Part shown: in pieces, positions 3,153-58,125 of the stretch
Layout: each line of letters starts with the position of its first letter
How positions within the stretch are numbered: position 1 is the first letter of the stretch
Assembly: GCF_000235425.2 (NCBI RefSeq)
Contig: NZ_KI912266.1
Location: 7,572,866 to 7,636,865 of the forward strand
DNA length: 64,000 nucleotides
DNA from: Pseudofrankia saprophytica
Lineage (GTDB): Bacteria; Actinomycetota; Actinomycetes; Frankiales; Frankiaceae
Direction: 5' to 3'
Program-made: the position numbers and the translations under genes
Notes under the pieces: generated by a model
Seen by the model: the letters and a program-made list of their open reading frames with translations, nothing else
What the model was told of the DNA's origin: nothing
The model's database searches: none

Positions 3153-3260
3153 ATGCCTACCTTCCCGTCGCCCCATACGTCAAGGGGTGCGGCGTCCGGG
3201 CTGGTAGGGGCACGGGTGCCCGAAGGGTCCCGGCCGGCGGCACGGAACGCCGCGTCATGA
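3153..3260 (+). CDS. 35-residue leader ORF coupled to the TetR gene (tentative)
   Basis: An ATG at 3153 opens a 35-codon frame (MPTFPSPHTSRGAASG...) that stops at 3258-3260, overlapping the TetR ATG as ATGA. The ATG lies six bases after a TATGCT box, as expected for a leaderless transcript. The TetR ATG itself has no Shine-Dalgarno sequence, so coupled translation from this frame would explain how TetR is made. No homology is recognised. It could be chance. Confidence 0.35.
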   Translation: MPTFPSPHTSRGAASGLVGARVPEGSRPAARNAAS

Positions 3261-3868
3261 CCACCCCCCGCCGGATGGGCGCGTCGGACTCGAAGACCAG
3301 AGCCGCGCTGCTCGACGTCACCGCCCAGATCATGATCGAGGAAGGCTACGCCGCGGCGACCTCGCGGCGGGTCGCGGCGAAGGCCGGCGTCAAGCCCGCG
3401 CTCGTGCATTACTACTTCCGCACGATGGACGACCTTTTCCTCGCGCTCTTCCAGAAAGGCGCCGAACTAAATCTGAGGCGCTACGAGCAGGCGCTTGCCT
3501 CGGAAAAGCCGCTGCGAGCGCTCTGGGAGCTCTCCAGCGAGCCGGTGGGCACCGTCCTGCTGTCGGAGTTCCAGGCGCTGGCGAACCACCGCAAGGCCAT
3601 CCGCACCGAGATCGCCGACTACGCGGAACGCTTCCGCGCGCTCCAGATAAAGGCCCTCACCGGCCTTCTCGCGGACGCCGGCGTCGACGTCGAGGCGGTA
3701 CCGCCGGCGGTGGTCACCCTCGTCGTCGTCGGCATAGCCCGGATCCTCATCTCGGAGGACATTCTCGGCGTCACCACCGGCCACGAGGAGACCCTCGCGC
3801 TCATCGAGCGGCACCTGACCCAGCTCGAGTCCGCCGCGGCGGGCGCGGGCGAGAAGACGGTTCCGTAG
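3257..3868 (+). CDS. TetR/AcrR family transcriptional regulator
   Basis: This 203-residue regulator has an N-terminal TetR helix-turn-helix at about residues 13-58 (AAATSRRVAAKAGVKPALVHYYF) followed by a helical ligand-binding domain. The divergent position suggests it represses the Mo-hydroxylase operon, but this is inferred only from context. The start at 3257 has no obvious ribosome-binding site. A second ATG at 3284 is possible but also lacks one. The last 68 bases overlap the 3' end of the convergent GntR gene. Confidence 0.85.
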   Translation: MTTPRRMGASDSKTRAALLDVTAQIMIEEGYAAATSRRVAAKAGVKPALVHYYFRTMDDLFLALFQKGAELNLRRYEQALASEKPLRALWELSSEPVGTVLLSEFQALANHRKAIRTEIADYAERFRALQIKALTGLLADAGVDVEAVPPAVVTLVVVGIARILISEDILGVTTGHEETLALIERHLTQLESAAAGAGEKTVP

Positions 3869-30682: not shown

Positions 30683-30716
30683 GTCCGCGGGGCGGCTTTG
30701 GTGGCCCGGTACTGGA

Positions 30717-30808
30717 TATTCGGCCAGCGGCCGGGCGTGCGTCGTCATATTCGGCCAGCGGCCGGGCGTGCGTCGTCATATTCGGCCAGCGGCCGGGCGT
30801 GCGTCGTC
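30717..30808. repeat. Three tandem copies of a 31-bp unit
   Basis: Units start at 30717, 30748 and 30779, each reading TATTCGGCCAGCGGCC then GGGCGTGCGTCGTCA. The third lacks the last base. The copies are identical and head-to-tail with no spacers. A period of 31 is not a multiple of three, so the tract is not maintained as protein code. Confidence 0.9.
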
Positions 30809-55009: not shown

Positions 55010-56266
55010 ATGAGCGACATCGTGACGCTGGACCCGCGGCGGATCCGCGAACTGTTCGACCTGCGCAGCGACGTGTACGCGTCCCGGGGTGGCTCGTTCG
55101 AGAAGGACCCGTACCCGGACTTTCACCGGCTGCGGGAGACGGGCCCCGTTCACCCCGGCGTCCTCGGGCCGCTCGTCGGCTACCACGGCGAGGGGTTCTT
55201 CCAGGGGCTCCCCTTCCCGGAGCTACCGCATTTCTCGGTCTTCGACTACGCCACCTGCCAGGACGTCCTGCGCGCCGGCGACACGTTCGTCTCCCGGCCG
55301 ACGGCCCCCGGCCCCGAGCTCGACATGGCCGACTCGGTCATGCTCTATTTCGACGGCGACCGGCACCGCCGCTACCGGGCGCTCGTCCAGGGGTCGTTCG
55401 TGCCCAAGCGCGGCCCCTGGTGGACCGAGCGCTGGGTCCGGGCAACGGTGGACGCCCTCATCGACACGTTCGAGAGCAACGGGCGGGCGGACCTCAACGT
55501 CGAGTTCTGCGCCGCGATCCCCCTGCTGACGATCTGCGGCAGCTTCGGCGTGGGCGCCGAGGACGCGCTGCGCATCCGCGAGGCGGCGACCTCCGACGGC
55601 CGCGACCGGGCCGTGCTCGCTGAGATCCTCCTGCCCATCATCAGGGCGCGGCGGCTCGAGCCGAAGGACGACATCATCAGCGTGCTCGTCCAGGCCGAGC
55701 TCACCGAGGACGGCACCCGCCAGGCCCTGTCCGACACCGACATCCTGGGCTTCGCCCTCCTCCTGCTGGCCGCGGGCTCGGGCACGACCTGGAAGCAGAT
55801 GGGCATCACGCTGCTCGCGCTGCTGACCCACCCGCACTCGCTGGAGGCCGTCCGGGCGGACCGGGCGCTGCTGCGCCCGGCGATCGAGGAGTCCCTGCGC
55901 TGGCTGCCGACCGACCCGATGTTCTCCCGCTACGCCCTCCGGGACACGGAGCTCGGTGGGGTCGCGATCCCGGCCGGCTCGGTGGTGCACCTGTGCTTCG
56001 CGGCGGCGAACCGCGACCCGGCCCGCTGGGAGCGCCCGGACGAGTTCGACCCGTCCCGCCCGCCGGGTGCCCACCTCGGCTTCGGCGGCGGCCCGCACAT
56101 CTGCCTGGGCATGCACGTCGCCCGGGCGGAACTCCACACCGCCATCGACGCGCTGCTCGACCGCCTGCCCGGCCTGCGCCTCGACGAGGACGCCGAGCCG
56201 CCGAAGATCGTCGGGATGTACGAGCGGGGACCGACGTCGGTGCCGGTGGTGTGGGAGACCCGATGA
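55010..56266 (+). CDS. Cytochrome P450
   Basis: A 418-residue P450 with I-helix LAAGSGTT, ExxR motif EESLR and heme loop GFGGGPHICLGMH with Cys365. The substrate is unknown; the unit also encodes an aldehyde dehydrogenase, Ltp-type thiolase and CoA-transferase, which suggests oxidation of a hydrocarbon side chain. ATG 55010 stands 38 bases after the Ddn-like gene. The stop overlaps the DUF35 gene by four bases (ATGA). Confidence 0.93.
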   Translation: MSDIVTLDPRRIRELFDLRSDVYASRGGSFEKDPYPDFHRLRETGPVHPGVLGPLVGYHGEGFFQGLPFPELPHFSVFDYATCQDVLRAGDTFVSRPTAPGPELDMADSVMLYFDGDRHRRYRALVQGSFVPKRGPWWTERWVRATVDALIDTFESNGRADLNVEFCAAIPLLTICGSFGVGAEDALRIREAATSDGRDRAVLAEILLPIIRARRLEPKDDIISVLVQAELTEDGTRQALSDTDILGFALLLLAAGSGTTWKQMGITLLALLTHPHSLEAVRADRALLRPAIEESLRWLPTDPMFSRYALRDTELGGVAIPAGSVVHLCFAAANRDPARWERPDEFDPSRPPGAHLGFGGGPHICLGMHVARAELHTAIDALLDRLPGLRLDEDAEPPKIVGMYERGPTSVPVVWETR

Positions 56267-56871
56267 CCGAGCAGACGTCGAACGAGCAGGCGCCGCCCGG
56301 GTCGACGCTGGTCGTCGAGGCGTTCGAGCGGGTGGCGCCGCCGCTGACCGAGCGGACCGCCGCGTTCTGGACCTCCGGCGCGGACGGCGTGCTGCGGATC
56401 GCCCGCTGCCACGACTGCGGGCGTTACCTGCACCCACCGCGGCCGACCTGCCCTGCCTGCCGGGGACGCGACGTCGGGTTCACACCGGTCTCCGGCCGCG
56501 CCGTGGTGTGGTCGTGGACGGTGAACCGCTACGGCTGGGTGCCGTCGATGCCGCCGCCGTACGTGGTCGCCGACGTCGAACTCGTCGAGCAGCCCGGCCT
56601 GCGGCTGCTCACCAACGTCCTCGACTGCCCGCCCGAGTCGATGCGCGTCGGCCTGCCAGTACGGGTCTGCTTCAGCAAGGTCGGCGACGCGTACATACCG
56701 CTCTTCCGGCCGGAGGCCGGCGATAGGCACAGCCGGCCGGAGGCCGGCGATGGGCACAGCCGGCCGGAGGCCGGCGATGGGCACAGCCGGCCGGAGGCCG
56801 GCGATGGGCACAGCCGGCCGGAGGCCGGCGATGGGCACAGCCGGCCGGAGGTCGGCGATGGAGCGGGCTGA
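56263..56871 (+). CDS. DUF35 zinc-ribbon/OB-fold protein with a nonapeptide-repeat tail
   Basis: A 202-residue protein with a rubredoxin-like zinc ribbon (CHDCGRYLHPPRPTCPAC) and an OB-fold (GRAVVWSWTVNRYG). DUF35 proteins pair with thiolase-like Ltp proteins, as ChsH2 does with Ltp2 in steroid side-chain retro-aldol cleavage. The next gene is such a thiolase. The C-terminal 54 residues are six near-perfect copies of RPEAGDGHS, encoded by the 27-bp repeats at 56706-56867. The tail is not part of the family and may be dispensable. Confidence 0.9.
   Translation: MTEQTSNEQAPPGSTLVVEAFERVAPPLTERTAAFWTSGADGVLRIARCHDCGRYLHPPRPTCPACRGRDVGFTPVSGRAVVWSWTVNRYGWVPSMPPPYVVADVELVEQPGLRLLTNVLDCPPESMRVGLPVRVCFSKVGDAYIPLFRPEAGDRHSRPEAGDGHSRPEAGDGHSRPEAGDGHSRPEAGDGHSRPEVGDGAG
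56706..56867. repeat. Six 27-bp tandem repeats, coding in two frames and carrying start signals
   Basis: Each unit is CCGGCCGGAGGCCGGCG followed by ATGGGCACAG. The frame of the DUF35 gene reads it as RPEAGDGHS, and the frame of the thiolase reads it as MGTAGRRPA. Every unit from the second on contains GGAGG six bases before an in-frame ATG (56750, 56777, 56804, 56831, 56858). Unit 1 has ATA instead of ATG and unit 6 diverges at its end. Confidence 0.92.
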
Positions 56872-58018
56872 GGGTCGGGCGGTCGTCAGCGGGGTGGGGC
56901 GGTCGCGGATCGGGCGGCGGCTTGGGGTCGATCCGTGGGAGCTGACCGCGGACGCGGCCCTGGCCGCGATCGCCGATGCCGGGCTTACGGCTGACGACAT
57001 CGACGGGGTGTCGACCTATCCGGGGGCGTTCTGGTCGACGCCGGGGATCACCGGCGCCGGCGTCGATGACGTCCGGTCGATGCTGGGGCTGAAGACGCGC
57101 TGGCACACCGGCGGCGGCGAGCTCGCCGGCCAGCTGGGGTCGGTGGTCAACGCGGTCCTGGCCATCGCCACCGGCTTCGCGACCCATGTCCTGTGCTTCC
57201 GGACGGTGTGGGAGTCCACCGCGCAGCAGGGCTTCGGCAACCGCGCCGCGACACTGCTGAGCGGCGGCGGCACATCCGGCCAGCCGGTGCGTTTCGGCCG
57301 CGAGCTGACGCAGTGGACCACCCCGTTCGGGATCGGCTACCCGAGCCACGCCGCGCTGGACATGCAGCGACGCATGGAGCTGGCCGGCGCCACGCGGGAG
57401 CAGTTCGCCCAGCTGGCGCTCGCCGCTCGCCGCTACGCGGCGCGCAACGAGTCCGCGGTCTACCGCGAGCCGCTCACGCTCGACACGTACCTGAACGCTC
57501 GGATGATCTCCGATCCGGTCTGCCTCTATGACTGCGACGTTCCGGTGGACGGTTCGGTGGCCTTCGTCGTCTCCAGCGTCGCCCAGGCCGCCGACCCCGC
57601 CCGCGCGGTCGCGTTCGAGGCGCTCGGCAGCGCGTCCGGCTTCGACGAGGCGGCGGCGATGATGTGGGCGCGTACCGACCTCAAGCCGGCGGACGTCGAC
57701 GTCGCGCAGGTCTACGACGGGTTCACGGTCTATGCGATCCGCTGGCTGGAGGCGCTCGGCTTCTGCGGTCGCTACGAAGGCACCGCCTACCTCGACGGAG
57801 GCGAACGCATCGGCCCGGACGGCGAGCTGCCGACCAACACCGGTGGCGGCCAGCTCTCCGGCGGCCGGCTGCACGGGTACGGCGGCCTACTCGAGGCGTG
57901 CCTGCAGCTGCGCGGCGAGGCCGGCGCCCATCAGCTCGCCTCCGGTCCCCAGGTGGCCGTCGTGACGAGCGGCGCCGAGCAGTTCACCTCCTCGCTGCTC
58001 CTCGGCGCGCCCCGATGA
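56858..58018 (+). CDS. Thiolase-like protein of the lipid-transfer/Ltp group
   Basis: A 386-residue thiolase-superfamily protein (VVSGVGRSRIGRRLGVDPWE, ADAALAAIADAGLTADDIDG, RLHGYGGLLEACLQLRGEAG). The nucleophilic Cys block of true thiolases (NxxCxTGS) is replaced by GQLGSVVNAVL, and a Tyr/Phe-rich AQVYDGFTVY remains. Together with DUF35 this suggests a retro-aldolase or acyl-CoA lyase like Ltp2. Starts at 56750, 56777, 56804 and 56831 are equally served by ribosome-binding sites and would add repeats of MGTAGRRPA. ATG 56858 is listed because the family domain begins there. Confidence 0.85.
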   Translation: MERAEGRAVVSGVGRSRIGRRLGVDPWELTADAALAAIADAGLTADDIDGVSTYPGAFWSTPGITGAGVDDVRSMLGLKTRWHTGGGELAGQLGSVVNAVLAIATGFATHVLCFRTVWESTAQQGFGNRAATLLSGGGTSGQPVRFGRELTQWTTPFGIGYPSHAALDMQRRMELAGATREQFAQLALAARRYAARNESAVYREPLTLDTYLNARMISDPVCLYDCDVPVDGSVAFVVSSVAQAADPARAVAFEALGSASGFDEAAAMMWARTDLKPADVDVAQVYDGFTVYAIRWLEALGFCGRYEGTAYLDGGERIGPDGELPTNTGGGQLSGGRLHGYGGLLEACLQLRGEAGAHQLASGPQVAVVTSGAEQFTSSLLLGAPR

Positions 58019-58125
58019 CCGCCATCCGAGCCACCGCCATCCGAGCCACCGCCGCCCGAACCGCCGCCGCCCGAACCGCCGCTCAAGTCCTTGCCCGAGC
58101 CGTCACCCGACAGGAGCAATGCTGA
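58015..58125 (+). CDS. 36-residue bridging mini-ORF
   Basis: ATG 58015 overlaps the thiolase stop (ATGA), and the TGA at 58123-58125 shares one base with the amidohydrolase ATG (TGATG). The peptide begins MTAIRATAIRATAARTAAAR and is built from short Ala/Arg/Thr repeats, encoded by CATCCGAGCCACCGC-type repeats. The AGGAG for the amidohydrolase lies inside it. No family is recognised. Confidence 0.45.
   Translation: MTAIRATAIRATAARTAAARTAAQVLARAVTRQEQC

Follow-up and report, generated by a model that had tools for sequence, protein, structure and literature searches.

Results

The window (the whole stretch of DNA that was analyzed, 64,000 nucleotides of the 9.98 Mb, two-contig genome of Pseudofrankia saprophytica) carries genes for a P450, a DUF35 protein, a thiolase-like protein, an amidohydrolase and a CoA-transferase III, in this order (Table 1). 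The thiolase and the DUF35 protein, the latter with a ChsH2-like zinc ribbon and OB fold, match both chains of the Ltp2/ChsH2(DUF35) retro-aldolase pair of PDB 6OK1, the thiolase matching chain 6ok1_A with an E value of 4.5e-45 and the DUF35 protein matching chain 6ok1_B with an E value of 3.7e-17 over residues 27-152 only. No match to a hydratase domain was found by Pfam in the DUF35 protein. The likeness to this pair, a retro-aldolase of steroid CoA thioesters, is one of sequence, and the DUF35 protein differs from the solved one in having a repeat tail.

Table 1. Features at the DUF35/thiolase junction of P. saprophytica (positions in the window)
Feature	Position	Strand	Description
P450 gene	55010-56266		First gene of the series
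DUF35 gene	56263..56871	+	202 aa; Pfam zf-ChsH2, OB_ChsH2_C; residues beyond about 152 are the repeat array and its end
27-bp tandem array	56706..56861	+	TRF: 5.8 copies, 98% match, score 298
Four extra in-frame ATGs	56750, 56777, 56804, 56831 (56750..56857)	+	Each 6 nt after GGAGG
Thiolase-start/DUF35-stop overlap	56858..56871	+	14 nt; putative translational coupling
Thiolase/Ltp2-like gene, from the conserved start	56858..58018	+	386 aa
Amidohydrolase gene	58119		Downstream of the thiolase gene
CoA-transferase III gene	59397		Downstream of the amidohydrolase gene

The end of the DUF35 gene is occupied by a tandem array of a 27-bp unit (CCGGCCGGAGGCCGGCGATGGGCACAG). The initial annotation had placed this array at 56706-56867; its start is as proposed, and the end given by TRF is six nucleotides earlier. 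The two translations proposed for the unit, RPEAGDGHS in DUF35 and MGTAGRRPA in the thiolase, were both confirmed: the DUF35 frame of the array reads RPEAGDRHS, four times RPEAGDGHS, and RPEVGDGAG followed by the stop, and the thiolase frame reads four times MGTAGRRPA, the fourth ending in RRSA, and then MERAEGRAV. Five successive units also bear, as proposed, GGAGG and an in-frame ATG for the thiolase. These are units 2 to 6; in every one of them, including the last (GGAGGTCGGCGATG), six nucleotides separate GGAGG from the ATG, and the first of the six units has ATA instead. There is no stop between the five ATGs (the four of Table 1 and that at 56858), and the upstream ones would potentially extend the thiolase N terminus by 36, 27, 18 or 9 aa. 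The five full copies are 99% alike, and the array has the features of a minisatellite, being homogeneous and made of units of at least 10 bp. The unit is an inverted repeat (GCCGGCC-GGA-GGCCGGC) with a 7-bp stem which covers part of the Shine-Dalgarno (SD) motif; its predicted folding energy is -15.1 kcal/mol when folded alone, and shuffles of the array region fold much less stably than the region itself (z -6.09, 0/200 shuffles as low). Coding in two frames was rejected as a surprise in itself: none of the six frames of the unit contains a stop, which is also true of 75% of 5000 shuffled units, and two open forward frames are kept by 89% of the shuffles, so that such openness is expected from composition.

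Tandem repeats are common in P. saprophytica, with 292 non-overlapping TRF arrays in a background sample of 800 kb of the genome (800 N among them). Nine of these arrays, all with periods of at least 63 bp, score as high as the junction array. When the window is added to the sample (864 kb), the DUF35/thiolase array is the sole TRF row with a period of at least 15, at least 5 copies and at least 95% match. Among 157 TRF rows whose period is a multiple of 3, with at least 9 bp and at least 2.5 copies (window included, overlapping rows unmerged, SD motif loosely defined), nine hit lines showed repeated pairs of an SD-like motif and a start codon one period apart; the junction array alone had ATGs throughout and a long ORF (386 aa) after it. 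When GTG is counted other arrays appear, such as that at 3246-3440 of locus L153 (period 21, 9.3 copies, 84% match), in which a 199-aa open frame contains five in-frame GTGs, candidate starts only, preceded by SD-like motifs. This array may simply lie inside a repeat protein; it is a point against the uniqueness of the junction array. Elsewhere in the window there is a perfect 31-bp direct repeat in three copies (30716-30808; ATATTCGGCCAGCGGCCGGGCGTGCGTCGTC), the period of which is not a multiple of 3.

Exact copies of the 18-base core of the unit were found only at the junction array in the P. saprophytica genome. With up to two mismatches 28 places were found, six of them in the array, as compared to 11 for a reversed control pattern. 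The other 22 places are scattered, one having one mismatch and the rest two, and no array was present within the 140 bases read around the one-mismatch place. Across related genomes the motif GCCGGAGGCCGGNNATG has exactly seven occurrences, in 4 of 13 genomes, all at the DUF35/thiolase junction. A dispersed mobile or REP-like element was thus rejected, since core places outside the array are scattered and the genus-wide motif is confined to the junction. A separate observation concerns an inverted, hairpin-like pair of the segment GACCGGAGGCCGGCGACG at about 1501-1540 of locus L011 (G000:C1:2560686-2560725), whose letters resemble the unit core.

The distribution of the array was addressed by searching for DUF35 in 97 genomes, 53 of which gave a match, and for the thiolase in eight genomes of the genus, seven of which were positive, that of P. 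saprophytica included; the remaining one, G002, was negative at E <= 1e-100. Nine close junctions were compared, P. saprophytica included, with one genome per species: seven within the genus and two in a sister genus (G008 and G023). Genomes of the genus match Frankia sp. AgB1.9 (G003), Frankia nepalensis CN7 (G004), Pseudofrankia asymbiotica (G005), Pseudofrankia sp. BMG5.36 (G006) and the metagenome-assembled Frankia sp. HOG45C (G007), and G001 is, we assume, strain EuI1c; G023, of the other genus, matches Parafrankia sp. EUN1f. Counted from after the LFRP anchor, and with partial units included, there are six units in P. saprophytica, four in both P. asymbiotica and G001 (the last one degenerate in each), three in BMG5.36, one plus a short remnant in AgB1.9, and one in CN7. 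No array was found at the junctions of HOG45C, G008 and EUN1f, and HOG45C has GGAGGCCGGCGATG at the thiolase start, like a single unit core. Copy number therefore differs at the same locus, from one to six units in six species of the genus with the seventh lacking the array, and the initial proposal that repeat number alters both the DUF35 tail and the count of SD and ATG pairs holds for P. saprophytica, where the array lengthens the tail and multiplies the in-frame pairs.

Unit sequence varies between species and is nearly identical within them (the first three units of G001 are identical, as are the middle two of P. asymbiotica), which suggests that expansion was largely lineage-specific. 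At the same time the units of P. saprophytica and AgB1.9 are 92% alike, above the 84% between AgB1.9 and its sister G001, suggesting that an ancestral unit is probably older than the split of P. saprophytica and AgB1.9, with lineage-specific expansions coming later. The thiolase tree supports only G001 with AgB1.9, G008 with EUN1f, and the genus as groups, and does not resolve the order of expansions. A survey of thiolase starts at 79 named loci, from the best 80 of 173 relatives (P. saprophytica and G001 not among these), found any TRF array with a score of at least 40 within -200 to +60 of the start at seven loci, two of them 27-bp arrays, both in Pseudofrankia. Arrays as a common habit of thiolase starts were rejected on these counts. 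At three more distant DUF35/thiolase junctions (G012, G022 and G029) the genes overlap by ATGA and an array is absent.

The region downstream of the thiolase gene also deserves mention. In P. saprophytica a 36-aa ORF (58015-58125) bridges the thiolase and amidohydrolase genes; it starts with an ATG that overlaps the stop codon of the thiolase (ATGA), ends with a TGA that overlaps the amidohydrolase start, and contains a 15-bp tandem array (58018-58082, TRF). This ORF could serve as a coupling relay. Similar bridge ORFs are found in CN7 (21 aa), P. asymbiotica (31 aa) and BMG5.36 (13 aa, with a GTG start). In EUN1f and G008 a short GTG ORF, of 12 and 15 aa respectively, begins 2 nt past the thiolase stop, and that of EUN1f ends at the first start of the next long ORF. 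None was seen in HOG45C, and G001 and AgB1.9 have a different next long ORF.

Start and stop codons overlap in all nine close junctions. The overlap measures 4 nt in G001 and AgB1.9 and 14 nt in the other seven, the start ATGs of G008 and EUN1f having been picked by eye, five codons further out than the genus position. All seven orthologues of the genus have an ATG at the position homologous to the last ATG of P. saprophytica (56858). This ATG encodes residue 37 of the 422-aa long form of the thiolase, and similarity to Ltp2 (6OK1) begins at residue 41. Given this conservation in the genus and the onset of Ltp2 similarity four residues after it, we infer that the last ATG is the main thiolase start. 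Annotation from the first ATG would thus add 36 probably non-native residues to the thiolase. In-frame upstream ATGs inside units number four in P. saprophytica, one, with SD, in BMG5.36, and zero in the other five members of the genus. The unit ATGs of G001 (three) and AgB1.9 (one) all lie in frames other than that of the thiolase, and no ATG occurs in the four units of P. asymbiotica. HOG45C and G008 each have one in-frame upstream ATG outside repeats, without an SD-like motif. In G001 (L055) initiation at a unit ATG would follow a frame other than the thiolase one and would end shortly past the thiolase start, with the TGA within CGGGCTGAGG.

Predicted accessibility was alike for the five SD and ATG pairs of P. 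saprophytica (SD 0.60 each, ATG 0.51-0.69), by a method of little power which gave almost zero for the ATG at the presumed real starts of P. asymbiotica and HOG45C. Nothing computed marks the upstream starts as silent, as they share the same SD and spacing and are similar in predicted accessibility. They may give a minor, N-terminally extended thiolase.

Discussion

Bacterial coding minisatellites (VNTRs) have in-frame units, homogeneous copies and a copy number that varies between relatives. The array shares these features with its in-frame 27-bp unit; it differs from them by lying in a gene overlap, by being read in two frames and by carrying a start codon with its SD, and its variation is known between species only. 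In the lic contingency loci of Haemophilus, 4-bp repeats adjoin alternative starts, shift frames and so switch expression. Here the repeat is likewise near alternative starts, whereas a change in the number of 27-bp units leaves the frame unshifted, 27 being a multiple of 3 and all six frames of the unit being open. Translationally coupled overlapping gene pairs have ATGA or short overlaps; the short stop/start overlap is conserved at this junction too, with the start before the upstream stop in every close junction compared, and what sets it apart are the extra upstream starts of P. saprophytica and BMG5.36. The junction array is an in-frame minisatellite sitting on what appears to be a coupled start site.

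We consider it likely that this is a locus-specific minisatellite which has grown by hairpin slippage in the overlap of a coupled DUF35/thiolase pair, that the upstream ATGs are by-products, and that no selected tuning need be invoked. The starting point would be a single-copy state as in CN7, where a GC-rich inverted repeat, the GCCGGAGGCCGG segment with the thiolase SD, lies directly before the start codon. Replication slippage on the hairpin would then duplicate the segment together with its SD and, in P. saprophytica, with an ATG. As 27 is a multiple of 3, gains and losses of whole units would be tolerated: none of them disturbs the reading frame or the stop of DUF35, or the last ATG coupled to it, and they would hence survive. 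Having finished DUF35, ribosomes would mostly reinitiate at the last ATG, which precedes the DUF35 stop codon by 11 nt, and the four upstream ATGs would be by-products. In this scheme the unit changes that leave the frame unaltered, the conserved overlap, and the multiplication of the SD and ATG in one lineage and, a single time, in another are directly observed; slippage, coupling by reinitiation and the use of the starts are deduced. Against this reading, four of the five upstream units of P. saprophytica retain both the ATG and an intact GGAGG, and BMG5.36 also has its one in-frame upstream ATG with SD. Near-identical copies are to be expected under recent selection no less than under recent drift, and part of the array, judging by the greater likeness of P. 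saprophytica units to those of AgB1.9 than of AgB1.9 units to those of G001, is old.

The initial annotation had proposed that slippage tunes the ratio of the two partner proteins, each unit providing the thiolase with one more site of ribosome entry. The five equal in-frame SD and ATG pairs of P. saprophytica, their similar predicted accessibility and the variable copy number between species are what such a translational rheostat would call for. The proposal is nevertheless largely unsupported and we regard it as unlikely, as repeat-borne in-frame ATGs are present in only two of seven orthologues of the genus whereas the last ATG is present in all seven, and the multi-unit arrays of P. asymbiotica and G001 have none. 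Furthermore, the solved relatives form a complex of two thiolase and two DUF35 chains (PMC12329534), so that ratio tuning would have no obvious use. In P. saprophytica alone, gain and loss of units might act as a stepwise dial, setting the number of entry sites and the mix of N termini (0, 9, 18, 27 or 36 extra residues) with the partner's tail lengthened by the same step; this is possible, with only a slight chance of being correct, and is not what the arrays have in common. Titles and abstract openings among the literature matches listed contained no described case.

It is also highly unlikely that the array is kept for the DUF35 tail itself, as a variable-length Pro/Glu/Gly-rich linker of RPEAG repeats. 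An RPEA- or RPET-like unit start is kept in P. saprophytica, P. asymbiotica, BMG5.36, G001 and AgB1.9 (first unit) and 27 bp make up whole codons; however, the conserved bases also belong to the hairpin and the SD, from which the peptide is not separable, there is only one unit in CN7, the tail is unrelated in HOG45C, G008 and EUN1f, and it lies outside the part similar to the solved DUF35. Less probable still is a role for RNA structure, in which stacked hairpins would mask the SDs except while DUF35 is being translated and so strengthen the coupling. The predicted fold of the array is strong and the stem covers part of the SD; however, any tandem repeat of a palindromic unit is bound to fold well, the predicted accessibility of the SD is similar for one unit (CN7, 0.50) and for six (P. 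saprophytica, 0.60), and the overlap is retained in relatives without the array.

The related species offer a natural series, running from a single unit through one with a remnant, three, and four (twice) to six, which can be used to ask if duplicated ribosome-binding and start segments at a coupled junction change protein ratio or N termini. If the upstream starts are used, the array would be a frame-neutral route by which slippage alters translation; if they are unused, it would mean that a coupled overlap tolerates expansion freely.
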